Origin: Chrysopilus asiliformis
Taxonomy: Eukaryota > Arthropoda > Insecta > Diptera > Rhagionidae
DNA: 64,000 nt
Assembly: GCA_964034945.1 (NCBI GenBank)
Contig: OZ035960.1
Location: 82,088,148 to 82,152,147 of the forward strand
Direction of reading: 5' to 3'
The notes under the pieces are model-generated. The model did not search any database. It had not been told where the DNA came from and was given only the letters and a program-made list of their open reading frames with translations. Made by a program: the position numbers and the translations under genes. Within the stretch, counting starts at the first letter, position 1; every line of letters starts with the position of its first letter. This document shows, one piece after another, positions 1,359 through 59,240 of the stretch.

Positions 1359-1689
1359 CTCGGGAGTTAGTTAATGAGCCAGTTAGGGAGTACGGTTTTT
1401 TGAGTTAGAGAAGTGAGTTGAAGTCGGGAGCTGCAGAGGAATCAAGGTTTAGAAAAAAGGAAAAAGTTTGTTTGAAGTTTAGAAAAAGTTTGTTTGAAGT
1501 TGAGTAGTTAAGAAATTGTTGTGTGTATAATAGTAAAAGAGGAACTTAACTAATAATATAACTTGTGTTAGAAATTTGTAAACATAGTGTAAGCAGATTC
1601 AGTGTAATTAATAGAGGAGAATTATAATAAATCAATTGGCAGAATAACAACAACGTTTTTAAATTCACCCTAACAAAATAGGTGTCACA
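1359..1689 (+). repeat. E1 5' LTR, truncated (R-U5 portion)
   Basis: The 331 bases match the last 331 bases of the E1 3' LTR (18274-18906 without the 18527-18828 insertion), and I saw no difference by eye. The LTR ends in GTGTCACA, followed after four bases by the primer site. The U3 portion present in the 3' LTR (17675-18273) is missing. The break lies 25 bases downstream of the position equivalent to the TATAAAAG box, i.e. near the expected transcription start. At 1611-1620 it holds the empty TTAA target site that is filled in the 3' LTR. Confidence 0.85.
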
Positions 1690-1882
1690 TTTATGGCGCA
1701 GTTGGTAGGATTACTTGTTTATGAGGCCACAGTTCAGCAGGACAAGTGGTACAAGTGATTTAAGAATAGTTGTTTCGTGACAAACGTTATCCCGGTCATT
1801 ACAACAAAACTCTTGTGACATTTTGTTTTAAAGGGCGAAGTGTACTGTGCAACCAACGGCAGAAACCAGTCCGAAGTGATAA
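1690..1882 (+). other. E1 leader between LTR and gag
   Basis: Untranslated leader of about 190 bases carrying the primer site. No start codon context comparable to the gag ATG at 1883 is seen before it. Confidence 0.6.
1694..1710 (+). other. E1 primer binding site, tRNA-Ser type
   Basis: TGGCGCAGTTGGTAGGA lies four bases after the LTR end. It is the primer-site type of the 17.6/297 group of insect gypsy elements (tRNA-Ser). The same sequence follows both E5 LTR copies (46312 and 54038). Confidence 0.8.
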
Positions 1883-3740
1883 ATGTCAGATACACTACGG
1901 AAATTTCTTCGCAGAAACCCGAGAAGACGCGCTACGAGAAAATACACAACTCCACATACAGAGAGCTCATCCATAAGTTCAGAGGAATTCAACCGCGGAA
2001 TCAACTCCAAAGAAGCGCAACAGAAATCAACTCCAAAGAAGGACAACAGCAACACAGCAAGAAAGGTACAGCAATTCGCCAGCATCCCATTCGAACAAAT
2101 TTCACATCACCTACAAGAAGAGATTGAGGAACTTTTCGGCGCATCCAACACTCTACAAAATCTATTCGGCACCTTCAGGAACCCACAACCAGGACCCAGC
2201 GGTATCAACCCAAAGCAAGGAGACAACTGTCCAGTATCCAGCATACCAGTATCTAACATCACTAACGGAAGTGCAGCAGAACAAGTGTCAGCATCTAGAC
2301 GAGTAGAAGCGCATCAAAGAAGCAGCAAATCCCCGGAAAAAACTTCATCAGACAATCACAAAACAGTAAGCGAAAAATTTGATAATATTATAAACTTTAG
2401 AAATAGAATAGTACTAGATAGGGATAATAACGATTTTGTAATCTTAGATAGTGAAGACTCTGTAAATTCAATTAAAAGTCAAAATTCCGAATTTTTAGAG
2501 CTGACCGATCAGCAAATTAATAACGTATCTAAGTCGATTCAAGAATTTATTGTGCGGGTAGATAATTTAATTTCTAGAAACAATATCAAAGTGGAAGATA
2601 AAACAAGTAAAATGTCGTTAATAGAAATTTCCAAGTTAGTAAGTCTGATGGTCCCAGTTTTCACTGGAGAAAGGACCCCGACACTGGAAATGGATTTGAG
2701 ACGATTTTTGGATTGTGCAAAACAGATCCACGACACACTAACAGCTGATGCTGTTCCCATATTCCTATCTGTTTTACGTTCTAAATTACAAGGGAATGCA
2801 TATAGTCTAGTTGGTTCACATTCCTTTACCAGTTTTTTCAAATTTTCAAAATGTGATGCTTACGTTATATGCTCCTACTAAGTCTTTAGATAATTTGTAT
2901 GCAGAATTACGAAGGTGTGCGCAAAGTCCCGGGGAAACAGTTCAAGCTTTCGGATGTCGTTTAATAAAAATCCATACCGAAATGTACAATACTGTCCAAG
3001 CAAAATATCCGGAAGGGAGTTATGCTCTTATTAAAGAAATCGAAGAGGAAGTTCGATTCACCTACCGAGTAGGAATTTTAAGTCCTACAATACGGCAGGC
3101 TTTAATAAGTAGTACCCTAGACAAAATGGAATCACTCATGATTCTAGCTGACACCATAGAAAAAAACGAATTAAAGGCATATAAAGGTAGAAGAATGAAT
3201 CAATCATTTGAACAATCTTCAATTATGTCTGATGCACTTAATTGGACCCAACAATTCTCTAATTTCCCTAATTCAACTACTTCAACTCGTACTACAATTC
3301 AACCTTTCCCTAACTCAAGTTCCCCATTTAAAAACATCACAAGCAGAGGTTTTCAACAAAATCCATTAGGAAATTTTAGCAGATTTCCTCAACCTAATAA
3401 TCAATCAACAAATGTGCAAAGTAGCTTTTGTAAACGATTAGGACACGAATACCAAAATTGCCGAACAAGGCAATACTTCTGTTCTAATTGCCAAACTAAT
3501 GGCCACAGCACAGATCGCTGTTGGAAACAAACGCCTAATTCAAATTTCCAAACTTCAACACCAAAACGAAACCAAGCACAAATACATTTAAGCCAAAATA
3601 AGATCTCAAAACCTCTACTCTGTGATTGGTGTGAGCGAGACACCCACACTATAAATCAGTGTCCCTCAAAACGAAAATGGGAACAAAAAACTAATTCAGG
3701 CTCTCAAAATAATCTCCCATCAATACAGGGAAACCAATAG
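1883..3740 (+). pseudogene. gag: E1 gag, broken by one frameshift
   Basis: Capsid-type polyprotein of a 17.6/297-like gypsy element. The ATG at 1883 is supported by E5, whose gag begins at the same place after the leader with a similar basic N-terminus (MS-LLK/LRK, R-NP-R). The frame starting there runs to 2881, and the rest continues in another frame from about 2830 to 3740. The break lies in a T-run near 2828-2838. Near the C-terminus are two intact CX2CX4HX4C knuckles and one degenerate knuckle (about 3424-3462) whose first Cys is replaced. The capsid core resembles E5 gag closely. Nucleocapsid and capsid assembly are the family roles; this copy cannot make a full Gag without a frame correction. 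Confidence 0.88.
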
Positions 3741-5683
3741 GGTTTGAAGCTCCGCACCCATCTTCAGACCAAACCAAAAAGGGGTGTAAACCTAAAAATA
3801 TAACCACTGCTACGAAATATGAAAACGCCAAAGTAACACCCAAAAAACTCAAAATCCAAAAGAAAATTGAATCCATGCCTACTAATGAAATAATTATCCC
3901 ATACCAAAAACTTTATCGCGAGGCAGTTATAACCGCGAATGTTGACATCTCTTGTAAAAAACCAGTCCAATTTTTGGTGGATACAGGAGCAGATGTAAGT
4001 CTAATTAGACGATCGATCTTAAAACCCGATACGCCGATTAACAAAAATAGACTAGTAGTTCTGACTGGTTTATACGGTGCATCTGAACGATCGATAGGCA
4101 TCTGTGAAGCCAAAATGACTGCTGTGATAAGCGATCCAACTAAAGAAGCATTGACTTGTGAATTCCACGTAGTTAATGATAATGAATCGGTTCCTTGCGA
4201 TGGTATCATAGGAAGGGATATTTTATGGAACAGAAGTAGAATAGATTGCATTATGAAACGACTTCATTTTCCAGCAATAGAAGCGCTGCAATCAGAGCAC
4301 GAGTTTAAATTTGACTTTATAGATGACTCCTTGAACCAAATCACAAAATCTGAAATCGCGACTCAGAAAGTGACGTCAAGGGCAGGTCAATATAACAATG
4401 GAACGACTCAAGCTCAAACAATTGCAAATTCGAATCCAAGCTCAAAGAGGAGTTTGGCCCAAATATCGAAAGCTCAAACTGAAAACGGACAGGTCGATAT
4501 TCACAACCCGATTTATAAAACTTCTGAAAATCCTAAATCACTACAAGTGAATCAGCTAGAAAATTCCAATGACCCCTTGAACAAAACAACCAAATCTGAG
4601 ATCACGACTCAGAAGGTATTATCAAGGTCAGGTACATGGAATAACCTAGTCACTTGTGATCTATCTACCGTAGGTTCGGATCCACGTGCAAAAAATGCCG
4701 TGGCCCAATCATCCAAATCTTACGCCGAGATAGCGAAAATTTCACAACCAAGTCGTACAGGACGACTCGGGAAGGCAGCATGGTCAAAACCTAACCCATT
4801 TGAATCAGTTCCAATAAAAAGCACTGCTAACTCATCAACCAAATCTACAAATACTCTAAACAAACCACAAAATACTACTCAAAACCAAACACTTAACTTT
4901 CCCTCCAACCAAACAGGGAATTCTATCAAAACTATAGATGATGTTAGAAATTTGTGCAAATCTTTAGAAAAGGAACTCAATATTCAAATTTTTAAGCCGT
5001 CAGCGGAAAATAAAACCGCGCATACGGACATTAATTTAACCAAAAAACTTAACCTGAACAATGAAAAACTAAAATTCTCTCAAAAAATTTATCCAGCAAA
5101 TCTAATAATACCCCCACGTACGGAAAAGGTAATCGAAGTACCAATCCAAAACGGGAATGAAGATCTTATTTGTATGTCCAGAGAAATTGCCGATGGAGTG
5201 TACGTAGCTAACACCCTAGTTCGGCCCCGAAATGGGAAAATTACAATTAGCATCCTAAATTCAAATACGCACCAAATCACCTTGAATAACATACCCCTAA
5301 AAATTGTTAAAACAAAAAGGTTCAAAATTTTTTCATGTCAAGAAAATTTAAACCAGACTAACGGGTTTAAATCTCCTCCATATAAAAGGATTCGGGAAAT
5401 TATCGAATCCATACAAATGGATCCAGAGGCAAATCACGAAGAACGCCAGTCTATAATAAACATTTGTTCGCAATTTCATGATCTTTTTCATCTTCCCAAT
5501 GACAAATTAACCCATTCTAACGTTCTTACACATAAAATACCCATACGTCAGGACCAAGGAGCTCTAAATTTAAAGAATTATCGTTTGGCCGAAACCCACA
5601 GAAAAGTTATTAACGAACAAGTTAATAAAATGGTAGAAGAAGGAATAGTCCAGCCTAGCAAAAGTCCCTGGAACTCCCCTCTC
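3738..5683 (+). pseudogene. pol: E1 pol, protease to start of RT (truncated)
   Basis: The frame is -1 relative to gag and overlaps the gag end, as in gypsy elements; a later in-frame ATG is at 3875. The aspartic protease motif VDTGADVSLI is encoded near 3976-4005 and the IGRDIL flap region near 4210. A long Ser/Thr/Asn/Lys-rich linker follows (about 4300-5300). The start of reverse transcriptase (VEEGIVQPSKSPWNSPL) ends abruptly at about 5683, where a reversed LINE fragment begins. The catalytic RT motifs and RNase H are absent from E1. Related RT/RNase H sequence survives in E3 (31646-33430). Confidence 0.88.
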
Positions 5684-6646
5684 TTTTATTTATTTATTTA
5701 TTTATTTACTAATTCATCAATACACTGACTACTACAAGTTAAATTAAATGCTAATAAATGTATATACAAATTATAGAGAAAAAAAAATATTATAATAAAA
5801 AAAAAATAATTAAATATATGTTTACAATACTAAATAATAATTTAAAAATAAATACAAAACAAAAAAAAAATTTAATGAAGCAAATTCTTCAGTTGCGCTA
5901 GACTGATATTAAAATCAATACATTCAAATGAATTATTAAAAGTTCGAGCCATTGATGAAAGAGGCTCATTATAACCATAATTTGTCGAGTGTGATGGAAC
6001 TTTTAAAAATCTGTAAGTTCTTCTGGTTCTATTATTTGCGTTTATATTTAGTTGACTTAATAGTGGAACCGAGTCAATTATTCCGTTCAACATTTTAAAA
6101 GTGAATTTAATTTTGGCATTCGTACGGCGAACTTTTAGAGAATGCAAATTTATAAGTTTTAAGCGATCCTCATAAGGGGGGAGAATAAGAGAATTTTCCC
6201 ACGGTAAATGTTTCAGAGCAAATTGAACAAATTTTCGTTGGACACTTTCAATACGCACAGAGTGAATATCGTAGTAAGGGTCCCACACTACTGAAGCATA
6301 CTCTAAAATAGGACGAACGAATGCACAATATAAAGTTTTCGTGATAAAAGGATCACAAAATTCTTTAGACCATCTTTTAACAAAACCCAAGGTAGAGTTA
6401 GCTCTAGATGAAATCATATCAATATGGTCATTAAATGTAAGAGAAACATCAAAAATGACACCAAGATCTTTTACTTTAGTTGATCTTGGTATAACGTTAT
6501 CATTGAGCATATAATTATGTGAAATATATTCCTTCTTTCTAGTATAACTTACTACAGAACATTTATCAACGTTTAACAATAAAAAATTATTTGAACACCA
6601 AGTTTGAAAATTAAGCAAATCAGAAACATGAAAATGTATCACAACA
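5684..6646 (-). mobile_element. 5'-truncated LINE fragment encoding the C-terminus of a non-LTR RT
   Basis: On the minus strand an open frame of about 256 codons (6642 to 5872) encodes the post-catalytic part of a non-LTR reverse transcriptase (thumb and C-terminal region, with KVKDLGVIFD, ILEYASVVWDP and NYGYNEPLSSMAR). The 3' tail is a (TTTA)n tract on the plus strand at 5684-5707. The 5' part, including the catalytic motifs, is missing, as is common for LINE insertions. It replaces roughly the RT/RNase H portion of E1 rather than merely splitting it, because E1 sequence resumes in the RNase H-integrase linker at about 6647. No target duplication is visible. Confidence 0.85.
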
Positions 6647-7849
6647 CAGCGGTATGATTAAAACTGAGGAACAAGAGGTGAGGAATAAAGTAAACGATTC
6701 GACTAACAATCATCAACGAATACAAGTTGTAACTCGAAGCCAAAGTAAACAAAATAAACAACGGATGGAAAAACCAAATCAAAGCGAGAGTACAACAACA
6801 AATAATTCATATGATAAAAATGCAACGCAGCAATTACCCGAAGACAATGCACCTGATAATGACCATGAAAAGGGTGAACAAGGTAATGAACTTGAAACTG
6901 AGGATGATTCTATTGACCCAGTTATTTCCACAAAAAATGTACAGCAATTAACTGATCAAAAAGAAATAGAATCTGTACTTATGACCTACCATAATAGTCC
7001 ACTAGGCGGACACCAGGGAGTTTTCAAAACCTATCACCGTATAAGGCGATATTATCGGTGGAAAAACATGGTGAAAGACATTGAAAACTTTGTCAAAAGT
7101 TGTCCTCTTTGTCAAACGAATAAATGTTCACGCTACACGCGTATGCCAATGGTCATTACAGACACGGCATCACTACCCTTTGACAAAGTGTACCTGGATA
7201 TAGTTGGTCCACTTACAGTGACGGAAATGGGTAATAAATACCTTCTTACATTCCGAGATGATCTTACACGATTTTTCGATTGCGTGACCATAGAAAATTG
7301 CGAAGCCGAAACAGTGGCAAAAGCTTTTTACGAGCAAATCATAACGAGGTATAGAATTCCCAAAAAACTAGTCACCGATCAAGGAACAAACTTTTTGAGC
7401 GACGTATTTAAAAAATTGTGCAAACTGTTGAAAATACGCAAGTTACAAACAACCGCCTATCACCCGCAAACTAATGGTGCTCTTGAACGGTCCCACCGAC
7501 CTCTAGGTGAATACCTACGTAATTTTGTAAGTGAATACCCCACTACTTGGGATCAATGGATTAGGGAAGCAGTACACGTCCATAACAACACCATACATGC
7601 TTCAACCAAATTTACTCCCATGGACTTACTGTACGGTTTTTCCGCTGAACTTCCCACAATTGTAAAAAGAGAACCGGGACCTCTTTAAAAACGAAACTCG
7701 TAAAAATAAATTAAGTCCAATTTGGCTAGGGCCTTACGAAATAAAAGAAACCCCTAGCACGGTGAATTCAACCATAAAAATTCGTAACAAACTTGTACGC
7801 ATCCATAATAATCGACTGAACGAATACAACAGTCGAGATAAACATTAAA
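6647..7849 (+). pseudogene. E1 pol, linker and integrase
   Basis: Low-complexity linker with a VVTRSQ motif, followed by the integrase HHCC zinc finger (H in YHNSPLGGH, then CPLC near 7100). The DDE core follows, with first Asp in YLDIVGP (about 7192), second in TDQGTNF (about 7378) and Glu in GALERSHR (about 7490). The frame stops at 7688. The integrase C-terminal piece (WLGPYEI motif) continues in another frame to 7849 with a shortened connection, implying a small deletion plus frameshift near 7675-7690. Integrase would insert the cDNA into host DNA; this copy is damaged. Confidence 0.86.
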
Positions 7850-7894: not shown

Positions 7895-8233
7895 ATTAAG
7901 AGGTCGAAAGCCCAAGAAATCTGAGTCAAGAACAATTATACGAACCCAGAGGTATTGCTAAAACCGAGGTACAAAAGGGGAAGAATCAACCAAGAAATCA
8001 ATTAAAACATTCGCGAGTACAAGTTGCAACACGAAGCCAAAATAAACACAAAGAACGGCAGCTAAAAAATAATAAACAAAATCACAACACGTGTGGAAAA
8101 CCAACGACAACTGAGTCGGTTGAAGAAACTGCAACTCAGCAACCAACAACAACTGAGTCGAATGAAGAAACTGCAACTCAGCAACCCCGAAGACTGAAAA
8201 AAACAATAAATAAAAGAGGAAACAAATTTTACC
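7895..8233 (+). repeat. Second copy of the RNase H-integrase linker, misplaced after integrase
   Basis: This segment encodes a linker almost the same as the one after RNase H in E3 (minus strand, about 31640-31850), including QEQLY, GIAKTEVQKG and SRVQVATRSQ. In E3 it follows RNase H; here it follows integrase. It includes two units of about 42 bp encoding a TTTES-EETATQQ repeat (about 8100-8190). It looks like a piece of a related element placed here by recombination or template switching. Confidence 0.7.
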
Positions 8234-8299
8234 CTACTAAAATTTTATTTTAAAAATGTTTTGTTACAAAGAAATTTTTTTATTATAACATATGTATGT

Positions 8300-8698
8300 A
8301 GTTAACTAATTTTGTAATTAGAACTTTAAAAAAATATATTTTAAGTGGACTACTTGTCCACTATGGAATAAAACAATATAAAACTTTATATTAACTTTAT
8401 TATGAGCCCACGGCTGCGGAGTTTTAACCTTCAATATACAGAATGGATTAAGAACTAAAGAACTTTATCTTATTCTAGCTCCTTTTATAATTTTAGATAA
8501 GCTTATATGACTATTACAAGATTAGGATGTTTCATCCTATGATTCGATGTACATTATTTAGACAGGTGTCTGTGAATCATTATGATGCTTTGATATTTCT
8601 ATGTTTATATGATTGAGATTTTACTCATCGTTAGTCATTTACAGTTATATGACAAATCTATAGTCGTTTACAGTTATATGTCAAATCTATATTTAACT
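8300..8698 (-). repeat. V1 3' LTR
   Basis: 399 bp, AGTTAA...TTAACT, identical by eye to 15694-16092. It contains a short palindrome, AGTGGACtacttGTCCACT, near 8345-8363. Confidence 0.93.
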
Positions 8699-8712
8699 CC
8701 TCCCTTCTTAAG
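8699..8712 (-). other. V1 polypurine tract
   Basis: On the minus strand AAGAAGGGAGG directly precedes the LTR start. This is the usual primer for plus-strand DNA synthesis in LTR elements. Confidence 0.7.
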
Positions 8713-8739
8713 ACTTTTTGTCCTCAAAAAGAGTGAAAT

Positions 8740-10159
8740 TTATTTATTACCTGAGCTACTGTCTAATTGAATTGCTTCTGGCATACTTTTTGAGTGTATA
8801 TTTAGAATTTTAAAATTTTTAGTCTTTTTTATCCAATATATGATTATTACAATTATTGTTATTGCTGTTACATAGAGTATTGTATCATTTGATATTGAAT
8901 GAATATTTAATTGATTGATTTTTTCTGTTTGTTTTATGTTTTCAATATGAAGTTTGTCTACATTTGGTTTGATGTATGCCTCTGTAAGATTTATTTGTAA
9001 AATGGGAGGTAATGGTTGAAAGTTTTTAATTTCTTTTGAAATAAATCTTTGATTTCCGAAATCTATAGAACAGTTATTAATTTTGATAAGAAAGCTTCCT
9101 TTTAAGGATTTTATTTCATTGTCACATTCATTGGTGAAATTTCCTTCAAAATTATCAACGAATATTAGGTTATCGTTTATTTCTTCTATTACTGTATTGA
9201 TATTGTATTTGTTTGGGCAATTAGCATTTACCCCTTTAAGTAGCCTAACTGTACATGAGTTTTTTGGTAATTTTATTACACTTTCTCTTTTGCATATTGT
9301 TAGATCTTGAAATGTGTTACACTTTTGTCGGATGCCATAATAATCTTGTTTGCTAGTAAGTAAATGAGTGTAGTCAAGATCAATTTGTTTTTGATTATTG
9401 GTTATTGGTTTTAATATTAAATGATCATATTCAATTTCTTCAGTTAGTGGGATAGATACAATGTAAAGGATTAAATTATCTTTGATTGCGACATATGGGA
9501 TTGCTAGGTTAAGGGCTTCTGCTTCTGTTTTGTATGGTAAATTTTTTGTTATTTTAATAATATCGTTTAGTTCCTGTTTGTTTAGGATTTTTGTATTTAT
9601 TATTCCCTTTCTTGCCCAGTGGATGGCATCTGTGATTTGGTCAATCTCGTGTTTCATAATCATTACTTTATTGAAAATGGCTTGTTCTAAATCTTTATCC
9701 AATATTTGGTTATAGTTTTTGAGTATTTTATTGGAGATGTCAAAAATGTTTTTATTGATTATAATTTGTTTGTTATTATTTTCACGAAGTTCATTTTGGG
9801 AATTTATAAGAGTTTCTAGATCGTAAGCATCCGGGTTGCCTGCTATCCACTTCCAAGCGGATCCTATCCAATTGATAGCTCTTCTTTGGCGATAGGGTTT
9901 GAGTTCATTTAACTGTTTCTCTATTTCATTTTGTAAGTGTTCGATTTGTATTTTTAGAGGGGATGAATTGTTAATTTTTAAATTGACTGCTGAGATTAAA
10001 ACTGTATGTACCTGAATGTAATTTGTGAGGTTTATAACATGTACTATTTTGAAGTTTCCTTCTGTTAGTTTTCCAGGTCCTGCTTTGATAGTTGCAAGGG
10101 GTGTATTCGTATATTCAAAGATTTTCACACTTCCGTTGACTAACCAAATGATGGTAAAC
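8740..10159 (-). CDS. env: V1 envelope-like glycoprotein, probably from a spliced RNA
   Basis: One open frame encodes a class I-type errantiviral envelope of about 470 residues. A furin-type site RQRR lies near residue 80 (counted from 10128), followed by a hydrophobic stretch with Trp residues (INWIGSAWKW). Several N-glycosylation sequons, paired Cys residues around 9200-9320 and a C-terminal membrane segment (about residues 412-432) with a short basic tail are visible. No ATG opens the frame. Instead a splice acceptor (TTTAATTTCAG on -) ends at 10160, so the start probably comes from a spliced leader, as in gypsy. The first residues after the acceptor are hydrophobic and could complete a signal peptide. 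The protein would act at the cell or particle surface. No internal lesion was found. Confidence 0.87.
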
Positions 10160-10172
10160 CTGAAATTAAAGA
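10160..10172 (-). promoter_or_regulatory. Candidate splice acceptor for V1 env
   Basis: The minus strand reads TTTAATTTCAG then GTTTACC, with the env frame open from just before it to 8740 and a stop codon shortly upstream. The donor was not identified. Spliced env expression is established for gypsy-type errantiviruses. Confidence 0.55.
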
Positions 10173-10192
10173 TTCGTTGTGAGATAGGGGAA

Positions 10193-13100
10193 TTAATCTT
10201 GTTTAATATTTGTTTTATGAATTCTTTTGCCGCTGTACGTTGTTACTGTGACTCTGTGATCATCCTTGACTATTTCTTTGGAAAATTTCTGGTTTAATTT
10301 CCCTTTCCTTCCAGGGGCTTTTATGTAGATAACATCGCCTGTGTTATATTTTTTTGGATTCTGACGTTTTTTGTTTTCGTAATTGAGTCGTTGTTGTTGA
10401 ATTCGTTCAATTAAATGTTTGGTTTTTGTATTTGCTTGTTCTCGTGCGGTTTGTAATTCTTCCAGGGTTTTAGATGGGATTCTACCATAAAATATGGTAG
10501 CCGGAGTCTCCTTGACAGTGCTATGAATAGAATTATTATAACGGTCGGTTGCTATTAGTGCTAATTCATTTATAGACAAAGATCTGTGTTGCTTTTGTAG
10601 ACATCTTATTATTTCCTGAATTGTGGAGTGTACTCTTTCCACTTGTCCATTTACTTCGCTACGAGAGGATGGTGTCAAATATATTTCTACTCCTATATTT
10701 TGTAAAAATTCTGTTATTATTGGTGTTGTGAAAGCCTTATCTCTGTCCATTACTAATAATTTCGGAGTCGTGTAGTAATGTATTAATTCCAATATTTTTT
10801 CCTTAAGATGTAATGATGATTTATTTTCTATAGGAAATAGTTTGGTGAATTTAGAAAATTTATCTAATGATGTTAGGAATAATTTTCCATCGAGTTCCAT
10901 AATGTCAATATGGATAATTTCGGTTGGATATTGCGGAATTGGTGTGGGTTGCAATTGGTTACGAGAGGGATGTCTATCGTATTTGTTTTCTTTACAGATG
11001 TTACAGTTTGCTATAATTTCTCTGATTTTTGAGGCCATTTTAGGGAAATAATATTGTTGAAGTAGTTTTTCCTTATTTTCTTCAGCTCTTCTGTGTGCTA
11101 GCCTGTGTTCTTTTAGAATGGTTTCCAAAATTTGTTCCTCATCAATAAGGTCCGTAACCACTTTTTGTGTGAACCTAATTTTCAAATTTCTTCCAAAATG
11201 TTCCTTATATATGTCTTGAATAAGTTGCATTATATGTTCTGGGGCTTTAAGTCCGTTGATGACATCTGATCTCATTTCAGTTTTGAGTATTTGTTTTATA
11301 GAATCTTCTTTGAGTTGAATCTTTGTGATGGTCTTCCTATGATATCCGGGATGTGGTAATTCGTAGGCACGTTGTTCCTCTTCTCCTTCTTGAAGGATTA
11401 CTTGATTTTTGAAAACGTTAATAGGGGATTCGGTACAAATGATGAGATCTGTTGAATCTTCCTCTGCACTGTGTTGAGTGGATGTAGAAGCATTACATTC
11501 GCTGATGTTCATCCTAGATAAAGCGTCGGCTACTACATTTGCTTTACCTGGTCTGTAGACAATTTCGTAATTATATTCTTCGAGTCTTGCCTTCCATCTT
11601 TTGAGTTTTGCATTGTTGTTTTTATTGCTAAGAGCAAATGTTAAAGGTTGGTGGTCAGTGAGAATTTTTAATTTTTTTGCTCCATACAAATAATTTCTAA
11701 GATTTTCTAGGGCCCAAATGATTGCAAGCATTTCCTTTTCGTTTGTGGCATAATTTTGTTCGGTAGTATTCAGACTTCTGGAAATGTACGTAATTGGTTT
11801 GTCCTTTCCAATTTCTCCTTGAGATAGGACGGCTCCTAATGCATAATTAGATGCGTCGGTTGTTAGAATAAATGGTTTTTCGAAATCTGGGAAAATGAGT
11901 AATTCCGATGAGGTCAAGTGGTCTTTTAATTTATTGAAAGCTTCTTTTTCTTCTTTATTAAATTTTATTGGAATCTTTGTTGATTGGGTTTTGCGTATTC
12001 TAGCCAATTCTCCACCTGTGAGTTTTGTAAGTGGTTTGGCGATTTTGGCAAAATCCTTAATAAATTTTCTATAATAGGAGGCTAATCCTAAAAATGATTT
12101 TAGCTCCTTTAAAGTTTTGGGTTCCTGTGTGTTTGTTATAGATTGTATTTTTTTAGGATCTGCTTTAATTCCTTGGCTTGAAATTATGAAGCCTAAGAAT
12201 TCTGTTTCTGTCTTAAGAAATTCTGTTTTATCCAGGTTAACTTTTAGATTGGCTTTGCTTAGTTTTGAAAATATTACCCTTAGGTCTTCGAAATGTTGTT
12301 CGATTGTTTCGCTGTATACAACTATATCGTCTATATATACATGACAGCGTTTTCCGATTTCTTCTTTTAGTACGTCATCAATCATTCGTTGGAATTCCGA
12401 TGGGGCGTTTTTGAGGCCAAACGGTAATCTCAAAAATTCGTACTTTCCGTTTAACGTTGAAAATGCGGTTTTTTCAATGTCTTCTTCTTCCATTCGTATC
12501 TGATGAAATCCGGAAGTTAGATCTATTGTTGTGAAATACTTGGCCTTTCCCAAGTTCGCTAGAGTGCATGTAATATCAGGTATGGGATATTTGTCAGAGA
12601 TTGTGACATTATTTAGTTTTTTGTAATCAATGACCATTCTGTATTTCTTTTCGCCTGATGCATCCAATTTTTTTGGTACTACCCATATTGGTGCGTTATA
12701 GGGTGATCTTGAAGGTCTTATTACGTTGTCTTCAAGTAGTTTTTTGATCTGTTTATCAACTTCTTTTCTCATGTTGAATGGGTATGGATAAGTCTTTGCA
12801 TAAATTGGTGAATTAGTACTTGTTCTAATTCTTGCTTTTATATTAGTGACTGCTGTTATCTTGTCGTTGGGTTTAGAAAACAATGGTCTAAATTCCCTGA
12901 TTAGTTTGTTTAGATCATCCTGCTGGTTTTTAGGGAGGTGGTTATTTCTGATATTGATGTGATTTACATCGAATGACTTTTTCATCTGTAAGGGGATTTC
13001 GATTCCTGGGTGAATTTTTAAAATGGATTTACCTCTGTCAATAACTGCTTTTAGTTGTCTTAATGTATCGTCGCCTATAATTCCGTCGAAAGATGTTAGA

Positions 13101-13395
13101 GATGGTAGCAAATAGAATTTTACTGGAATTCTATTTCCGTATTTTGAGAATATTCTTCCCGTGGCTGATTGTTCTATTTTTATTTTTCCTCCAACAGAGT
13201 TTATGAAGAATGGTTTTTTAACGGGTTTGGGGTTTGATACGTGTTTTGGGGAAATGAAGTTTTTGTTGGCTCCGGTGTCTATTAGGAGTTTGAGGAATTT
13301 TCCATCCGATATTTCGTATGCTAAGTAGGGTGTTGCACTAAGTCTGCTTGGCAAAAATTTAATTCTGGCTCCAGATCGAAGTCTTCGCAGCACAA
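10193..13395 (-). CDS. pol: V1 Pol polyprotein (protease, RT, RNase H, integrase)
   Basis: About 1066 codons in the -1 frame relative to gag, overlapping it by about 70 bases. This fits translation by -1 frameshifting, since no ATG opens the frame. In order: protease (LIDTGANKNF, residue about 37), RT with LPFGLKNAPSEFQ and YIDDIVVYS (about 350), and RNase H (TTDASNYALGAVLSQ, then TDHQPL). Integrase follows with an HHCC finger (HRLAH ... CNIC) and DDE residues (HIDIMEL, MDRDKAF, NGQVERVH). It ends in a C-terminal GDVIYIKAPG domain. All catalytic residues I can check are present. Together these enzymes copy the RNA genome and integrate the cDNA. Confidence 0.93.
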
Positions 13396-14661
13396 TTCGT
13401 ATGGATCTTCATAAGCTTCGTTGCTTGTATCTTCATATGATTCCTCAGCAGGTTCCGTATTGGTGTGGTACATACGTTGTTGAGGTTGTGCATTTGGCAG
13501 GTTACCAAATGGTAAAGGTTTCCTGAACGGTTGAGGATTAATCTGTGGTCTATTCATGTAATTGACCTGTTTACTTTGTGTGCTTTTATCCACATCCATT
13601 GGCTCTGGTTTATTTTGTTGGTTATATCGGGGATAAATAGGTGGTTTATGTTGAATGTTATATGGTTTATTATATTGATTAACTTGAGGATATATTTGGG
13701 GTTTGTATTGAGCGTTATACAATGTATTGCGCTGTTGTGTCGTAAGTTGAGGTGGGTTAAAGTTTCTGGGCATTGGCGTTGGTGGTTGTGAATATCGCTT
13801 TGGGGGTAATGTTGGTGGTGTAAGAGCATTATGCGGTACTACAATTGAATTTGTTTGATTATTTTTATTGAGAAAATTGGTTGCCCTATAATTCATGTTT
13901 TGTATTTCCAGACATGAAGAATATGCTTCTGGAAGTGATCTGGGTGATTTGATTGCAATAAGTTTAGACAATTCTCCGTTCAGACCTCTTATAAATGTAT
14001 CGAGAGCTCTGTTACGGTGTCCTTCTATTATTGTGGATTGTGTTTCAATACTGAAACATTCTGTCTGGACTTTGTTAATAATTAGGGTAAGATGATGATT
14101 GACTTCTCCAAAGAATTCATCAATCGATTTCTTTCCTTGGTGGAGTGAGTACAATTGATACTCAAGGGTTCTAATATCGCGTTTGTCTGCGTAGTGCAAT
14201 GACAAACATCTTTTGATTGCTATCCAGTTTTCATCTGGAGTATTGTATGCAATTAAGGCTGTGTCAGCCTCATCAACTATCTTTTGACGTATTGAGCGAA
14301 TTATTGCTCTATAGAGGGGTTTGTTTCTTATGATTTTGTAGTCGTCCAAGACGCTTTCCACGGATTTTATCCATGAAGAATATGTTGTAGGGTTACCATT
14401 AAAGGACTTAATTTCCTTTACGGGGTCTGGTATTTTTGTTTGCTGGGATAATTCATCTTCAGTTGTGGGTTTTACTAATGGTGGTTCAATATTTATTTGA
14501 GGGGGTTGGGCAATTGTTAGTAGGGTTTGTTGAGTTTCTGATTTAAATTCATCAAACTGGATTTGGATTTTATTCGTTTGATTAATTTGTGCATTTAAGG
14601 CACCTGTTAAATTTAAAATTTCTGCCCTAACAAGGTCCATGGCTTCTTGAATAGTAGTCAT
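13321..14661 (-). CDS. gag: V1 Gag
   Basis: An ORF of 446 codons with ATG at 14661. The N-terminal third has heptad-like Leu/Ile spacing. The capsid-like middle (about residues 100-240) resembles gypsy Gag (SWIKSVESVLDDYK, FIRGLNGELSKLI). The C-terminal half is rich in Pro, Gln, Asn and Tyr, with an acidic end. No CCHC knuckle is present, as in several errantiviruses. It forms the particle shell. The end overlaps pol by about 70 bases at the presumed frameshift site. Confidence 0.9.
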   Translation of the reverse strand: MTTIQEAMDLVRAEILNLTGALNAQINQTNKIQIQFDEFKSETQQTLLTIAQPPQINIEPPLVKPTTEDELSQQTKIPDPVKEIKSFNGNPTTYSSWIKSVESVLDDYKIIRNKPLYRAIIRSIRQKIVDEADTALIAYNTPDENWIAIKRCLSLHYADKRDIRTLEYQLYSLHQGKKSIDEFFGEVNHHLTLIINKVQTECFSIETQSTIIEGHRNRALDTFIRGLNGELSKLIAIKSPRSLPEAYSSCLEIQNMNYRATNFLNKNNQTNSIVVPHNALTPPTLPPKRYSQPPTPMPRNFNPPQLTTQQRNTLYNAQYKPQIYPQVNQYNKPYNIQHKPPIYPRYNQQNKPEPMDVDKSTQSKQVNYMNRPQINPQPFRKPLPFGNLPNAQPQQRMYHTNTEPAEESYEDTSNEAYEDPYELCCEDFDLEPELNFCQADLVQHPT

Positions 14662-14669
14662 TTTATAAA

Positions 14670-14792
14670 TTTTTATACTTTGACTTGAGTTTTACTAAGT
14701 AAATTTGTTTAGGACCTGACTTCGAGTACTTCACGTTTTTACTTGACTTCGCGTTTTCACTTGACTTCGCGTTTCACTTGACTTTGAGTTTT
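14670..14792. repeat. Short tandem repeats in the V1 leader
   Basis: Four to five imperfect units of about 17-19 bp with consensus CACTTGACTTCGCGTTTT on the plus strand, just upstream of gag on the element strand. Confidence 0.75.
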
Positions 14793-15401
14793 TTTTTTAA
14801 TCAATGGGATCATTAAAACGAGATTTCATGATTTATTCAAATTAATTTTTGATAATAGTGTAACACCTTTCAATTTACACGTTAGATAATTTGTATTGGT
14901 TTTTTTCTTATAAATCTATGATAACTTTTTCAATATTTGTGATTGGTTCAAATTTTAAAATATTTTTCCATTGTATAAAAAATTTTCACTTTACTTATTT
15001 GAATATTTCAATGTTGTTGATTGATATTTAATTTGTAAAATATTTTTGTTGAATAATGAAAGTTATTTGACTTACAAAATAATTGTTGGGATCCTCATAC
15101 TGTTGATGATTCTGGATTCCGAGTGATAGACACTATATGTTGAGTGATATAATTCCTTGAAGTTGATGATGTTGATGTAGGACGAGTTGCTCCTTTTTAG
15201 ATTGAGGCGTTAAAATTGTCCGTATCCTACTGGGGCTCGTTCACTGCACACATTCACCATCAGTACACTGCTATTTAGATCAATATCTCCGTGATCTGCT
15301 GCCGTGCGAATGCACTTGTCCTTTTAACTATGGACAACTTCTTGATTTTGTCACTATTTCACTTTATGACAGGTTTTTTGCACTGATTCTGATGATTGAT
15401 G

Positions 15402-15520
15402 TTTCGTTTTTTTTTCGTGGCACTTGTTTTTAATTGTGGCACTTTTTATAGAAACAGTTAGTTGGTTTCGTTTTTTCGTGGCACTTGTTTTTAATTGTGG
15501 CACTTTTTATAGAAACTATT
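15402..15520. repeat. Direct duplication of about 60 bp in the V1 leader
   Basis: Two units, each containing CGTGGCACTTG then TTTTTAATTGTGGCAC and TTTATAGAAAC, lie head to tail near the primer-site end of the leader. They differ mainly in a T-run length. Confidence 0.8.
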
Positions 15521-15676
15521 AACTTTGATCGTGGATTATATATATTTTGATTTATAGATTTTATATATTTCATTTATTTTTCGATTCTTTGATTTTTATA
15601 ATTTTTCATTTATATTTTGTGGCTTGAATTGTAAATTCACGTTTTCATTTTATAGCACTTTTATTAAAAGACGCCG

Positions 15677-15692
15677 GTCCCTGCTCGGGCGC
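15677..15692 (-). other. V1 primer binding site
   Basis: On the minus strand GCGCCCGAGCAGGGAC starts two bases after the LTR end. The same 16 bases occur in the primer site of the unrelated element EG (22361-22376). They resemble a tRNA-Lys-type site; the tRNA was not confirmed. Confidence 0.65.
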
Positions 15693-15693
15693 T

Positions 15694-16092
15694 AGTTAAC
15701 TAATTTTGTAATTAGAACTTTAAAAAAATATATTTTAAGTGGACTACTTGTCCACTATGGAATAAAACAATATAAAACTTTATATTAACTTTATTATGAG
15801 CCCACGGCTGCGGAGTTTTAACCTTCAATATACAGAATGGATTAAGAACTAAAGAACTTTATCTTATTCTAGCTCCTTTTATAATTTTAGATAAGCTTAT
15901 ATGACTATTACAAGATTAGGATGTTTCATCCTATGATTCGATGTACATTATTTAGACAGGTGTCTGTGAATCATTATGATGCTTTGATATTTCTATGTTT
16001 ATATGATTGAGATTTTACTCATCGTTAGTCATTTACAGTTATATGACAAATCTATAGTCGTTTACAGTTATATGTCAAATCTATATTTAACT
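15694..16092 (-). repeat. V1 5' LTR
   Basis: 399 bp, identical by eye to 8300-8698. The flank at 16093-16096 is the second ATGT of the target duplication. Confidence 0.93.
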
Positions 16093-16105: not shown

Positions 16106-16483
16106 TCAAGGCCAGAAAATACAACTGGTGCGGCCATCATGATCTAAACCCGTGACGTCCATGCCCATTTTCTCGGCAAAATTCTCCAAATCCGAAATCG
16201 TCATTCCGTCTTCTAACATTGTCCCTTGGCGGAAGGTAAGCCGGGACCCAAGTGCCACTGCCACCGGAAACGGAAGAATCGGGACCGCGACGCTGACGGC
16301 TGCCTGAAGTCCATCCTTGTCAAAGCGCGGGATCAGGTCTAAGAGATCCTCCATCCAACGCAGAGCTCGGCGCTGATCTCCTACTGATGACACCAAAATG
16401 GCCGACCCAACAAGTTGGAAGACAATAGCCTCTTTGGCCAAAACCACAAAAGAATACTCGGAATTAGGACGGCAGAAATACAT
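16106..16483 (-). CDS. Antisense ORF A in E1, 125 aa, unknown family
   Basis: The ORF lies antisense to E1 between pol and env. It is visibly richer in G+C than its surroundings. The context is AAA-ATG, with a stop (TAG) two codons upstream, so this ATG is the likely start. A pyrimidine-rich stretch ending TTCAG (about 16494-16504 on -) suggests an upstream 5' exon. I do not recognise the protein. It aligns without gaps over residues 1-83 with the 127-aa antisense ORF at 33524-33907: shared VL at 14-15, E18, DL at 46-47, D55, FPVAV at 72-76, L78, T83. After a 3-residue offset a V-x-GL match follows, and both end in WP. No signal peptide or membrane segment is evident. A minus-strand AATAAA lies downstream across the V1 insertion (about 8244-8249). 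Function unknown. Confidence 0.65.
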   Translation of the reverse strand: MYFCRPNSEYSFVVLAKEAIVFQLVGSAILVSSVGDQRRALRWMEDLLDLIPRFDKDGLQAAVSVAVPILPFPVAVALGSRLTFRQGTMLEDGMTISDLENFAEKMGMDVTGLDHDGRTSCIFWP

Positions 16484-16506
16484 TTTCCACTAATCACTGA
16501 AGGTAA

Positions 16507-17001
16507 ATGAGAGTTACTGCAATGCGCGAATTATTTATAAGAAAGGAAAACCGCAAAACAAGCAATTCAGGCGTCTCCAAAAACACGTACCAATTAACGC
16601 ACATGAACCAACTAGCTCCAATCCATTTACAATCAGAACACATGTCTATAGGTGAAGTTGAAAAGGAAATCAACGACCTAACCTTAAATGAAAAATTGCA
16701 CCAATACCACGCGCACATTACCGCTCAATAGGTCTTATTCTCAATATTACTATTAATAGCCGTGATCTATCTAATTTACCGATGCAGAGAAGGGTTATGC
16801 AAACGAAATAAGAAAAATAAGAGGCAGAGAACCAAGTTAAATCCTATTCGCATTGCATTACCCGAAATTAATGTGACCAAACCACACGAATCTGAAAGTA
16901 AAAACATAGAAGAAATATTCTCATTAGGAACCGCCCAAGGTACCGACGATTGGACCTTCCAAAAGAAAAAGGGGTGGGAAAGTCTAGGTTTAAAATTCTG
17001 A
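16507..17001 (+). pseudogene. E1 env, C-terminal remnant
   Basis: Reading frame with a stop at 16729-16731. It encodes the end of an ectodomain with a Glu/Leu/His-rich stretch, then a hydrophobic membrane segment (about 16738-16785) followed by Cys-Arg and a long basic tail. This is the usual end of an errantiviral envelope. The N-terminal part, with the cleavage site and fusion region, is missing: antisense ORF A lies immediately upstream, where E3 still has most of env (34994-36639). A deletion of over 1 kb is inferred. Not functional. Confidence 0.7.
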
Positions 17002-17674: not shown

Positions 17675-18248
17675 TGTGATGAATTGCATTTCAACTTTTC
17701 CAAACCGGATGCAATCCATCACTTGAGTTAAAGCAGAAGGTACAAAGTTCCAAATCAGAACATTGAACCATTCAATAAATTCAATAAAATTTCACAATCA
17801 AAAATTGCACAAGTGCACTCCGATCAATGTACTTTGTACCCATCATAAACCTTACATTTCATCATAATAATAATTCCGCCATACAAACCAATGAACCCCA
17901 AAAACGTACAAAATACACGACCTCATATTTCATAACAATTCGTCGATGTACAACTCAATAAACCCCAAACGTACAAAATACGTTTAGCGAAGGCACGCGA
18001 CAAACGCGATCCTATTTCACAACAATTGTATTGTTTTCATAACAATTGTATGTCGATCTTCACCAAGCCGGTAAAAATGCTGATTCTTCCAAATAATTCT
18101 GAGGGCTCACGACCAGAGCAAATACGAATTAAATGATTTCATAATTCACATCTGAATTGAAGTTTTTACCTATATTGCAATTACATACACAATGTAGGTT
18201 AATTAGGAAATTGTCTGAACGACAAAAAATTGAGCAGGTCAAGAAGCC

Positions 18249-18256
18249 TATAAAAG
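18249..18256 (+). promoter_or_regulatory. TATA box of E1 LTR
   Basis: TATAAAAG within GCCTATAAAAGAAGG. The same context occurs in both E5 LTR copies (45626-45633 and 53352-53359). Confidence 0.7.
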
Positions 18257-18526
18257 AAGGTGTTAAGGCCTGACTCGGGAGTTAGTTAATGAGCCAGTTA
18301 GGGAGTACGGTTTTTTGAGTTAGAGAAGTGAGTTGAAGTCGGGAGCTGCAGAGGAATCAAGGTTTAGAAAAAAGGAAAAAGTTTGTTTGAAGTTTAGAAA
18401 AAGTTTGTTTGAAGTTGAGTAGTTAAGAAATTGTTGTGTGTATAATAGTAAAAGAGGAACTTAACTAATAATATAACTTGTGTTAGAAATTTGTAAACAT
18501 AGTGTAAGCAGATTCAGTGTAATTAA

Positions 18527-18824
18527 CCCTTTCGGTACATGTTTTTTTCTGTGGGTTTTAAAAATACTCTGTATACAAATTAATGATTTTTAAGCTATTA
18601 GTATTCATTTAAAACAAAAAAAAAATTTAAAAAAAAAAATTAAAAATTTTAATTTTTTTCAAATACGTCCACTGTGGTCCAGCTTTTTACTCAAAAAATC
18701 AAAATTGGGTTACAAATGCACTTAAAGGTCCACTGAATGAGAATAGAGTGTTGAAAATAAATAAATAATAAGACAATTAAAATTTTTTAGCATGATGCCA
18801 TATGGCATCAAAATACCGAAAGGG
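18527..18824. mobile_element. 298-bp MITE with TTAA target duplication
   Basis: The 11-bp terminal inverted repeats CCCTTTCGGTA are exact and flanked on both sides by TTAA (18523-18526 and 18825-18828). The 5' LTR has the uninterrupted site with one TTAA. The interior is non-coding and AT-rich, with a palindrome GATGCCATATGGCATC near the right end. TTAA targeting and CCC-starting ends are typical of piggyBac-type elements, so a piggyBac transposase probably moved it. Confidence 0.9.
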
Positions 18825-18906
18825 TTAATAGAGGAGAATTATAATAAATCAATTGGCAGAATAACAACAACGTTTTTAAATTCACCCTAACAAAATAGGT
18901 GTCACA

Positions 18907-22357: not shown

Positions 22358-22358
22358 T

Positions 22359-22376
22359 TGGCGCCCGAGCAGGGAC
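22359..22376 (+). other. EG primer binding site
   Basis: TGGCGCCCGAGCAGGGAC one base after the LTR end. It resembles a tRNA-Lys-type site and shares 16 bases with the V1 primer site. Confidence 0.75.
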
Positions 22377-28657: not shown

Positions 28658-28673
28658 ACTATCTCGACTGGAA

Positions 28674-31540: not shown

Positions 31541-33430
31541 AGCATCTTTTTTATGATTAAGTTGTTGTGTTTGATCGTTTTCACGGTTGTTTAAGCCGTG
31601 CAATTGCTGAGTTGCATTTTTCTCATTCGACTCAGTTGTTGTTGGTTATCCGCACATGTTGTGATTTTGTTTATCATTTTCTAGCTGCCGTTCTTTGTGT
31701 TTATTTTGGCTTCGGGTTACAACTTGTACTCGCGAATGTTTGAATGGATTTTTGGCTTGATTCTTCCCCTTTTGTACCTCGGTTTTAGCAATACCGCTGG
31801 GTTTGTATAATTGTTCTTGAATCAGATTTCTTGGGCTTTCGTCGAGCATTGTCTCTAACGAATTTTCATATTGTTGTTTTTGGGTTAATTCATTGAGATT
31901 TTCATTACTTGTAGACGATGGGATTCGACTGAGGGCATCTGCTGCCGTGTTTAGTTTCCCTGCCTTGTATTGAATCTCGTAGTCATAATCAGATAGTTTA
32001 TGACGAAAACTAGTCAGTCGTGCTGTGGTGTCCTTGACATTGAACACTCCTTTTAAAGGCCTATGGTCGGAGTAAACGATGAATTTACGTCCTAGTAAAT
32101 AACATCGAAAATGTTTTGTAGCCCAAACTATTGCCAGCAATTCTTTCTCTATTGTTGAATATCGGCGTTCAGCCTCATTCAAGGTTCGGCTAGCGTAGGC
32201 TACTGGCCTTTCGTCCTGCGATATTATAGCACCGAGTGCCTCTCCACTAACATCTGTGGTTAATGAGAATGATTTAGCAAAATCTGGATATACCAGAAGA
32301 GGTGGAGAAGTTAAAGCTTCTTTGAGAGATTCGAATGCTTTTTCGCAGGATTCGCTCCATACAAACTTGTTGCCTTTTCTGAGTAAAGTTGTGAGGGGTA
32401 AGGCCTTTTGGGCAAAATCTTCAATGAACTTTCTATAATAGTTGGCGAGCCCTAGAAAACTTTGAACTTGTCGAATGGTTTTGGGACGTGGAAAATTCTT
32501 TACACAGTCTATATTTTGGGGATCGGGGAGAGCGCCTTCTTTCGTGCATTTGTGTCCTAAATAAATTACTTCCTTTTTGAGGAAGTGACACTTCTCGGAT
32601 TGGAGTTTAAAATTATGGATTCTGAGGCGTTCGAAAATTTCCATAAGCTTTTGGTTGTGATCATCTAGGGTTTTCCCGTAAATGACCAAATCGTCAATGT
32701 AAATGAAACACTTGATTCCTTGAAGTCCTGTCAAGGCGTGATTCATAGCTCTCTGGAATGTGGCAGGAGCCGATTTCAATCCAAATGGCATCCTTGTAAA
32801 TTCAAAATGACCAAAAGGAGTACTAAAAGCTGCTTTTTCTCCATCGTTTGGCTCAACTTGAATTTGATGGTATCCGCTAGCTAAGTCCAAAGTGGTGAAG
32901 TAAGTAGAATTTCCCAACTGGTCCAAAATCTCCTCGATTCTGGGCAGTGGAAAAGCGTCTCCTACAGTGACGTCATTTAGTTTCCTAAAATCCACCACTA
33001 ATCTCCATTTCTTCTCACCGTTTGTAAATGACCAAATCGTCAATGTAAATGAAACACTTGATTCCTTGAAGTCCTGTCAAGGCGTGATTCATAGCTCTCT
33101 GGAATGTGGCAGGAGCCGATTTCAATCCAAATGGCATCCTTGTAAATTCAAAATGACCAAAAACCTTGTAAATTCAAAATGAAAACCTTGTAAATTCATA
33201 AATTCAAAATGACCAAAAGGAGTACTAAAAGCTGTTTTTTCTCGATCGTTTGGCTCAACTTGAATTTGATGGTATCTGCTAGCTAAGTCCAAAGTGGTGA
33301 AGTAAGTAGAATTTCCCAACTGGTCCAAAATATCCTCGATTCTGGGCAGTGGAAAAGCGTCTCCTACAGTGACGTCATTTAGTTTCCTAAAATCCACCAC
33401 TACTCTCCATTTATTCTCACTGTTTGCTCC
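31540..33430 (-). pseudogene. E3-type pol fragment: RT and RNase H with partial duplication
   Basis: Minus-strand RT/RNase H closely related to the part missing in E1. From 33043 to 31646 the frame encodes RT (RMPFGLKSAPATFQ, YIDDLVIYG), RNase H (LTTDVSGEALGAIISQ, SDHRPLKGV) and the VVTRSQ linker. It then stops and decays before integrase at about 31540. Upstream, 33024-33430 repeats the first part of RT (WRVVVDFRKLNDVTV) as a second copy with extra short duplications. The fragment lacks protease and integrase. Its end at about 33430 abuts A-rich DNA. Confidence 0.85.
32684..33420 (-). repeat. Tandem partial duplication with stutter in E3 RT
   Basis: About 340 bp of RT (32684-33023) recur at 33029-33420. 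At 33140-33215 the word CCTTGTAAATTCAAAATGA appears several times in succession with small variations, as if copying restarted repeatedly. The two long units differ by scattered substitutions. Confidence 0.85.
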
Positions 33431-33523: not shown

Positions 33524-33907
33524 TTAAGGCCAGTTAAGGTCTGTCTTTCGGTCCAATATATCAAACGAACAGGCAAATAATCCCATGACATAGGCCATGT
33601 TATCCGCCGCTCGAGCGTCCAACGATTTCGGACAAAGATGGGCATTATGGGTCAAAATGGTCTCATTGCAGTTGAGTTTCACCGCTACGGGAAACGAAAA
33701 TGTGGCAAAAGATTTTCGACAATCCTCGATAATTGCAAAAACATCCCAAATATCCCTACGCAAATTCAAATCCTTGAGGAATAATCGAACCACTTCCGCT
33801 TTTCGTATAGGGGTGATCGCCAGCAGCATCTCCTCCTCCACTATTTGCACCTCCTCGCTGGACAAGACCAGCCATTCAAACTGCTCCTTACAAAAGGAAA
33901 TTAACAT
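33524..33907 (-). CDS. Antisense ORF B near E3 env, 127 aa, unknown family
   Basis: The ATG at 33907 has context GGAAA-ATG, as in ORF A; the stop follows TGG CCT as in ORF A. It is richer in G+C than its flanks. It aligns without gaps with ORF A over residues 1-83 (VL 14-15, E18, DL 46-47, D55, FPVAV 72-76, L78, T83), and V-x-GL and the terminal WP also match. Glu/Leu-rich helices are likely around residues 17-45. A strong splice acceptor (CTCTTTTTTTTCAG on -, ending at about 33935) precedes it. A candidate upstream exon with donor ACT-GTAAGT lies at 34172-34366. It sits head to head with the env at 34994-36639. I do not recognise the family. Confidence 0.62.
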   Translation of the reverse strand: MLISFCKEQFEWLVLSSEEVQIVEEEMLLAITPIRKAEVVRLFLKDLNLRRDIWDVFAIIEDCRKSFATFSFPVAVKLNCNETILTHNAHLCPKSLDARAADNMAYVMGLFACSFDILDRKTDLNWP

Positions 33908-34253
33908 TTTCCAAAATAAAAAACTATTCTCTCTGAAAAAAAAGAGAAATTTTTTTTTTTAAATTTTCTTAGAGTATTCTTTCTTTTTTTGACTGACGTT
34001 AGATTCACTTGGTGAACATTACAAATATCACACAAACTTAAATCGCAATACAAAAAATAAACTAATTCACCACATTTTGGCTAATTCACCACAAAGAATA
34101 CATTTTGGCTAATTCACCACAAAGAATAACAGTGAAAAAAATGGAAACAATAAAAGATAAATACTATATTTTTATATCGAAAAAAATTTTTTTTTTAGCA
34201 AAACCGCGAGTTTTTCTTTTTTTATGATCACATTAATAAAGTTGGTGGAGTCA

Positions 34254-34366: not shown

Positions 34367-34993
34367 AATAGACTTTCAGTAAATGTTTGTTAAATGGAAA
34401 TATTTTCACTTAGGGATTTTTCAAGTTTTTTTTTCACAAATGTTTCAAATAACTGTTCACAACGAACTTGTATACAGTATATATTTTACACAATATAAAA
34501 CGGTATGAACTTCACACAAGAAGGAACTTAACCTCAGTCAAGTTTGGAATTAAACTAACTGAAATAATAATTTTTAAAAATTATCAAGAACCTTACGCTT
34601 TAAAGCAAACCTTGAGAAAATGACATTTCAAAGCAGTAATTGAATATAGTATATCAACATTCCACTCGAAAAAAAGAGGGGGAAAGGGGCCGGGGAATGA
34701 GTAGAATAAGGGAACGATTTCGTGGGAACGCATCTATGCACATAAAAATCTGCTGAGATGACAAAACGGAAAACCGTCTGCGGTAAATCTCCAAAAGTGC
34801 AAAATCATACAAAAAAAAGAAGCACCACAAAACAACATACATTATGAATAACTACTCAAAGCTTCATATGAAAATTAGTTTTTGTTTTGTTTTTCTTTTT
34901 TTTTTTGCAAAAAATATCAATTTTAATATTAAACTCAATAAAATACAATAAAATACAATTCAAGAGCACGAAATTTTAGTAATTTTAGTACAA
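34367..34993. other. Spacer between antisense ORF B and env
   Basis: Divergent intergenic region. A minus-strand frame (34842-34654) is open but not supported. T- and A-rich runs precede env. No promoter element stands out. Confidence 0.4.
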
Positions 34994-36942: not shown

Positions 36943-37598
36943 TGTAGCGAAATAGGATCGAGACGTTATTGGAAAAACCGGATGTTTTCGAATTCCAACC
37001 TCGATTCAAAAGAATCCCTCGATGTTGCAAAATATAAAAAAAAGTATAAGATCGTCAAATTTCATGATTAATGAAATTTAACGAACTTTAAATAAGTTAG
37101 TAAAATTCCTGGGAATTGACGAAAAGGCAATTTTAACCGGATGCATACCAGACGGCAACCGTTCTCACGATAATTTTGCTTATTCAACAATTAAGCAAAA
37201 TGTATCGATTCTAATATTAAAAAGATAAAGATAATAAGTAGTGAATAAGAAGATAAGTAGTGAATAAAAAGAGTCGAAATTAAGAATTAATTAAAAGGAG
37301 TCGAAAACAAGTAGTCCTTAGAAAAAGTCAATAAGTACAGTCAAAAAATTAAAAGTGCACAAAATAGTAAAAGTTAAAAAAGTAGTTTCCAAAAGTTGAG
37401 TTATCAGAAAAAGAAAAGTAAAAGGATAGACATTAGACATTCAATATAAAAGGAGAAAGAAATTATAAAAAACTTATTATAAAAAACTCAAAAACACAAC
37501 ACTGCTTAGCGGTGGAAAGTTTGTTTTTTTATTGTCCGCGAATTAATTAATTTGAAAACAAATTAGAGGGAAAAACTTAAGTTTTGCCAGTTTTTCAA

Positions 37599-41927: not shown

Positions 41928-41959
<32 letters not shown>

Positions 41960-54035: not shown

Positions 54036-54037
54036 TT

Positions 54038-59205: not shown

Positions 59206-59240
<35 letters not shown>

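Follow-up and report, generated by a model that had tools for sequence, protein, structure and literature searches.

Plant gypsy elements, namely maize Grande (gene23), rice RIRE2 and Silene Retand, carry antisense ORFs in the interval that separates pol from the 3' LTR, and the accessible parts of the corresponding reports give a TRP28 domain in 97% of Retand clusters (PMC7264820, PMC11963269). The antisense gene hbz of the deltaretrovirus HTLV-1 codes for a bZIP protein; its expression, in spliced and unspliced forms, is driven by the 3' LTR (PMC10186651). The LTR elements of bdelloid rotifers present additional ORF3 genes that can be assigned to types, DEDDy and GDSL among them; these genes are kept by element families and are not termed antisense in the portion of that source at hand (PMC5408684). 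Insect errantiviruses have a gag-pol-env layout with a spliced env, and the accessible text on them mentions no additional or accessory ORF (PMC12992720). No antisense gene of insect gypsy elements was found in the literature searched, which was covered by titles and the beginnings of abstracts, with most subscription papers outside it.

We analysed two ORFs located in a window (the whole stretch of DNA studied, 64,000 nucleotides from Chrysopilus asiliformis) that is a nest of transposable elements with 35% G+C. An earlier note had described them as minus-strand ORFs of 125 and 127 codons, and both were found where it placed them:

16106..16483, minus strand: ORF A, 125 aa (basis: ORF listing and homology to ORF B)
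33524..33907, minus strand: ORF B, 127 aa (basis: ORF listing and homology to ORF A)

Like the plant ORFs of Grande, RIRE2 and Retand, ORF A is antisense to gag-pol, occupies a place after pol and ahead of the 3' LTR and is without known function. Unlike the Retand ORFs as described in the accessible text, ORF A and ORF B match neither TRP28 nor any other Pfam family, and, unlike the plant systems, which reside in plant hosts, they are followed by env-like sequence. The likeness to hbz is looser: an antisense frame is present in a retroelement that appears to be env-bearing, and ORF A and ORF B show putative acceptor-like sites, but they contain no bZIP or other domain of Pfam. As in the case of rotifer ORF3, a non-env extra gene of animal LTR elements would be concerned, although ORF A and ORF B match none of the ORF3 types; an insect host is also suggested by the Gypsy env and Baculo_F matches in the window. 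The carriers appear to share the gag-pol-env layout of the insect errantiviruses, one of which is nested in the element that carries ORF A, and differ from them, as far as the accessible text goes, by the extra ORF. The layout resembles that of the Grande and Retand ORFs and, more loosely, that of hbz; we claim membership in neither.

Similarity between ORF A and ORF B

The global alignment of the two proteins scored 6.6-8.3 SD above shuffles. The score of 40, compared to -43 ± 12.5 in shuffled sequences (maximum 12), was reached by 0 of 15000 shuffles, with a p of 1.5e-11 by a normal fit and 4e-4 by a Gumbel fit, and by 0 of 5000 in a separate run. A control set was composed of 483 length-matched pairs from the 56 ATG ORFs of 60-180 aa in the window. 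The z value exceeded 4 in eight of these pairs, but seven of them are copies from tandem duplications or LTRs and the remaining one is A-B, with 7.3; the best pair below it had a z of 3.98. When all 36 frame pairings were compared, the frame named in the earlier note was the best one (global z 8.3, local 5.8), the runners-up reaching 5.5 and 2.9, respectively. BLASTP of ORF A against ORF B gave an E of 5e-4, covering residue 72 to the end.

The local similarity is weak, its score being equalled by 7 of 5000 shuffles, which speaks against an inherited gene. Among the frames of the window, ORF A as query retrieved ORF B at E 2, with an unrelated frame ahead at 0.42, and ORF B retrieved ORF A at E 0.9; the better or equal unrelated matches of ORF A weigh in the same direction. 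The ungapped alignment of residues 1-83 described earlier contains 14 identities, and none of 5000 shuffles equalled its score, yet the best alignment has gaps in this region. The later V-x-GL that had been read as shared is unpaired in the best alignment, where the C-terminus pairs MG, D, R and WP. The proposal of protein-level conservation is upheld insofar as the global alignment and the 36 frame pairings support homology in the named frame. Judged from their sequences, ORF A and ORF B are very likely homologous.

Both ORFs present the GGAAA-ATG start and the TGG-CCT-stop end reported for them. GGAAA precedes the ATG in 4, and a WP terminus is found in 3, of the 170 ATG ORFs of at least 40 aa in the whole window; the two features occur together in ORF A and ORF B only, among the window ATG ORFs of at least 30 aa. 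A homology of the leaders was rejected: beyond TGGAAA there is no likeness, and 7771 of 28730 control pairs score equally high. The two products are small and acidic, with a net charge of -5 each. Two copies of the gene are known, both in defective elements, a point against its inheritance with the lineage, and tblastn and phmmer gave no significant match to a third copy within the window.

The family had not been recognised by the earlier reader, and the protein-profile searches of Pfam, PHROGs and NCBIfam likewise returned no match. In Pfam no family was obtained at E ≤ 10, and TRP28 and bZIP are thus absent. The PDB sequences gave no match (best E 0.08). AlphaFold models, computed from two-row alignments only, had a mean pLDDT of 48.5 and 35.3, and Foldseek yielded 0 matches at E ≤ 0.001; because the pLDDT is low, the Foldseek lists carry no weight. 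IMG/VR gave no result for any of the queries, namely ORF A, ORF B, the alignment of the two, the integrase of the carrier of ORF A and the RT fragment. The genome-contig scan, the plasmid search with ORF A and Rfam at gathering cut-offs were without result as well.

Coding signal and base composition

In a frame-blind alignment of A and B, the identities at the three codon positions were 50/88, 51/89 and 40/89, counted over those 266 of the 358 aligned positions at which the frame is kept, a pattern that may be taken as a modest sign of coding. Different codons are used for 18 of the 32 identical residues. The chance of an open frame at the ORFs' own composition is 0.013 for ORF A and 0.001 for ORF B. 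The claim that the ORFs are richer in G+C than their surroundings was borne out (0.52 and 0.45 compared to 0.28-0.38 in the measured flanks). At fourfold sites, the G+C is 0.60 in ORF A and 0.61 in ORF B, compared to 0.20-0.50 in 21 other element frames. Such G+C-rich, synonymously diverged copies suggest either that codon choice was maintained or that G+C-rich genes were captured separately and more recently.

In both ORFs the plus strand resembles the element in being rich in A, but this bias is absent at fourfold sites. Strand composition as a sign of long residence was rejected, the fourfold sites being unbiased (T 24 and A 21 on the ORF strand), which also counts against an inherited gene. 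The shadow of a plus-strand gene was also rejected, since the runner-up, plus frame 1 (z 5.5), holds 3 stops in A. In B, plus frame 1 includes the 121-aa open frame of the strand opposite ORF B (33597-33962, plus).

The element carrying ORF A

ORF A is carried by a plus-strand gypsy element, hereafter element A, with LTRs, gag-like frames, protease and integrase in gypsy order:

1359..1689, plus strand: truncated 5' LTR, by identity to stretches of the 3' LTR
1694..1710, plus strand: PBS-like 17-mer, read as PBS by its position
1883..3740, plus strand: two overlapping gag-like frames, resembling 59238-60362 as well as the gag frame 28674-29816
3713..5725, plus strand: protease and pol up to the RT start (RVP; tblastn to the pol 18902-21928)
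6615..7848, plus strand: integrase (Integrase_H2C2, rve), with a frame shift near 7670
7905..8253, plus strand: second pol-linker piece, of which 7905-8142 (238 nt) is 91% identical to 31841-31604
8299..16092, minus strand: nested errantivirus-type element with 400/400 nt LTRs and gag-like, pol and Gypsy env frames
16507..17001, plus strand: env-like remnant, by inspection and hydropathy, with a stop at 16729-16731 and a hydrophobic anchor after the stop
17675..18906, plus strand: 3' LTR, split by a MITE at 18527-18824

The 5' LTR is identical to the 3' LTR over 253/253 nt (18274-18526) and 82/82 nt (18825-18906), and the insertion of element A therefore looks young. The gag-like frames had no Pfam match and no RT was matched between 5725 and 6615; this copy is defective. 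The place of RT-RNaseH is filled by a minus-strand frame (5872-6642) weakly similar to LINE RT, and SH3_Tf2-1 in the integrase region is weak, below the cut-off. The absence of RT and of most of env from element A counts against an inherited gene. The nested element 8299-16092 appears to be a young insertion, given its identical 400-nt LTRs; it looks complete, with open gag-like, pol and env frames.

ORF A sits just right of this nested insertion and is followed by the env-like remnant and then by the 3' LTR. The remnant exhibits a hydrophobic anchor and a basic tail, without a significant Pfam match, and its env label was given by inspection. Its part 16507-16728 resembles residues 51-76 of the 462-aa env of the nested element (z 5.5), which is not the place expected to match a C-terminal remnant. 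The MITE at 18527-18824 in the 3' LTR is of the piggyBac type, with the ends CCCTTTCGGTA / TACCGAAAGGG and TTAA flanks.

The ORF B locus

From left to right, the second locus is composed of an inverted pol fragment, ORF B, broken env pieces, a polypurine tract and the start of an LTR:

31604..33426, minus strand: RT-RNaseH-linker fragment on the left side of ORF B, in the opposite orientation to env
34952..36639, plus strand: broken env pieces right of ORF B, one with a Baculo_F match, the others by inspection
36943..37100, plus strand: LTR start after the polypurine tract, aligned to the start of the element A 3' LTR

As the adjoining pol fragment is on the minus strand and env on the plus strand, this locus is a rearranged remnant. 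The pol fragment is cut off in RT, its RT start is partly duplicated in tandem at 32678-33426 (84% identical), and no 5' half of an element was found at the locus. The inversion of pol means that the pol order of the antisense layout is absent beside ORF B, which argues against an inherited gene. The Baculo_F match in the env piece 35202-35858 has an E of 3.4e-5 and 23.1 bits, just under the cut-off of 24.1. In 8 comparisons of the env pieces of A with those of B there was no match (z at most 1.3), a further point on the contrary side.

The polypurine tract and LTR start are alike in A and B, with a score of 54 compared to 33.3 ± 4.9 and reached by 0 of 200 mononucleotide shuffles. The two loci therefore look like the 3' ends of related elements, and it is likely, for the same reason, that ORF B has its place in the env-bearing gypsy lineage. 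The order and orientation of the ORF relative to env-like sequence and LTR are the same at both loci. Since ORF A lies inside an LTR element and ORF B lies 5' of a broken env with an A-like LTR start, the gene probably belongs to the lineage. The antisense position relative to gag-pol-env proposed earlier is thus firm for element A, with its gag, protease, integrase and LTRs, and only likely for ORF B. The position directly upstream of env holds for ORF A, 24 nt away, where only an env-like tail is left, but not for ORF B, which is about 1 kb from the first env piece (34952).

Other elements in the window

A 7.7-kb tandem repeat (38895-46579 and 46592-54305, 99.2% identity) contains LINE and gypsy parts, and its LTR is related to that of element A. 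The LTR-like sequences, at 44898-46328 and 52624-54054, are followed by the 17-mer PBS-like site of element A, and a LINE interrupts the gag-like frames after the 52624-54054 copy. Neither copy showed an antisense ORF. A minus-strand gypsy element extends over 18902-29816 (gag 28674-29816, pol 18902-21928) and appears to be split by a plus-strand gypsy element, 22113-28657, with identical 245-nt LTRs, and cut by element A. A piggyBac-type transposase frame of 409 aa is open at 61445-62674 (DDE_Tnp_1_7, E 2.5e-65).

Putative splice sites and expression

The splice acceptors reported before both ATGs correspond to acceptor-like CAG sites, which precede the ATG by 13 nt in A and by 25 nt in B:

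16497..16499, minus strand: putative acceptor-like CAG before ORF A, consensus match only
33933..33935, minus strand: putative acceptor-like CAG before ORF B, consensus match only

Acceptor sites that good occur at 1.56 per kb on the minus strand, and a given ATG is estimated to have one within 30 nt with a chance of about 5%. Their presence near both ATGs is suggestive of splicing, rather than a proof of it. Donor-like sites are weak for A, with two at 7.6 bits, which again does not favour an inherited gene, and better for B, where the best of five has 11.1 bits (at 36571). An AATAAA is present 3' of ORF A, past the nested insertion, and is unremarkable in such AT-rich DNA.

Minus-strand transcription could start from a downstream promoter, which might lie in the 3' LTR, as it does in HTLV-1 hbz, or belong to the gene itself, as in maize Grande gene23. 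Starting from that LTR or from a promoter close to env, a transcript could cross env in reverse and express the ORF with or without splicing; the acceptor-like CAG that closely precedes the ATG may be the site used. The product would be a protein, small and acidic, with a regulatory effect on the element, for instance on its sense transcription or on host silencing. This role is suggested by the regulation of the element proposed for the plant antisense ORFs and, in part, for hbz (PMC7264820, PMC11963269, PMC10186651).

Discussion

We favour, with slightly better than even confidence, the reading of ORF A and ORF B as strongly diverged copies of one gene that is placed antisense between pol and env in an env-bearing gypsy (Metaviridae) lineage, transcribed from the minus strand and regulating the element. 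The ambisense character of this lineage is put forward as a hypothesis. A wider proposal, in which an insect-type ERV lineage is ambisense and has long kept an antisense accessory gene of a new family, controlling the element or silencing and paralleling hbz and the plant ORFs independently, is tentative and somewhat short of an even prospect.

The main rival is a captured passenger gene, which we regard as rather unlikely. Two host (or other virus) paralogues would have been taken up by defective, template-switched elements, with no role in them, in the manner of retroviral transduction. This agrees with the fourfold-site G+C, which is unlike that of gag, pol and env and could mean a recent capture, with the mosaic nature of element A, where a foreign linker piece is present and a LINE RT-like frame replaces RT, and with the inverted pol beside ORF B. 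However, two related elements agree in how the ORF is oriented and placed with respect to env-like sequence and LTR, and with this shared layout a capture would have been needed twice at a like place.

It is improbable that the gene belongs to another mobile element or virus that integrated into these ones in the opposite orientation: nested elements abound in the window and a minus-strand pol fragment adjoins ORF B on the left, but that fragment is cut off in RT, and around ORF A a non-exhaustive search recognised neither a second gene nor a terminal repeat of such an element. Chance open frames with a chance resemblance are very improbable, for although the local match is weak in an unselected search (E 0.9-2), the Gumbel p is far larger than the normal one and the open-frame probabilities are as given above, the global score was reached by none of the shuffles in either run, and frame specificity, fourfold-site G+C, both termini and length all agree.

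The inherited gene that we favour would, if it is indeed inherited and expressed, extend antisense accessory genes to the env-bearing gypsy elements of animals. Such elements are silenced by piRNA clusters via antisense RNA (PMC12992720), and a minus-strand gene would share its strand with the silencing RNA, which raises a testable question. With the homology, the place and the composition of the two ORFs to go by, the proposal can be checked directly in the genomes of insects and in stranded RNA data.
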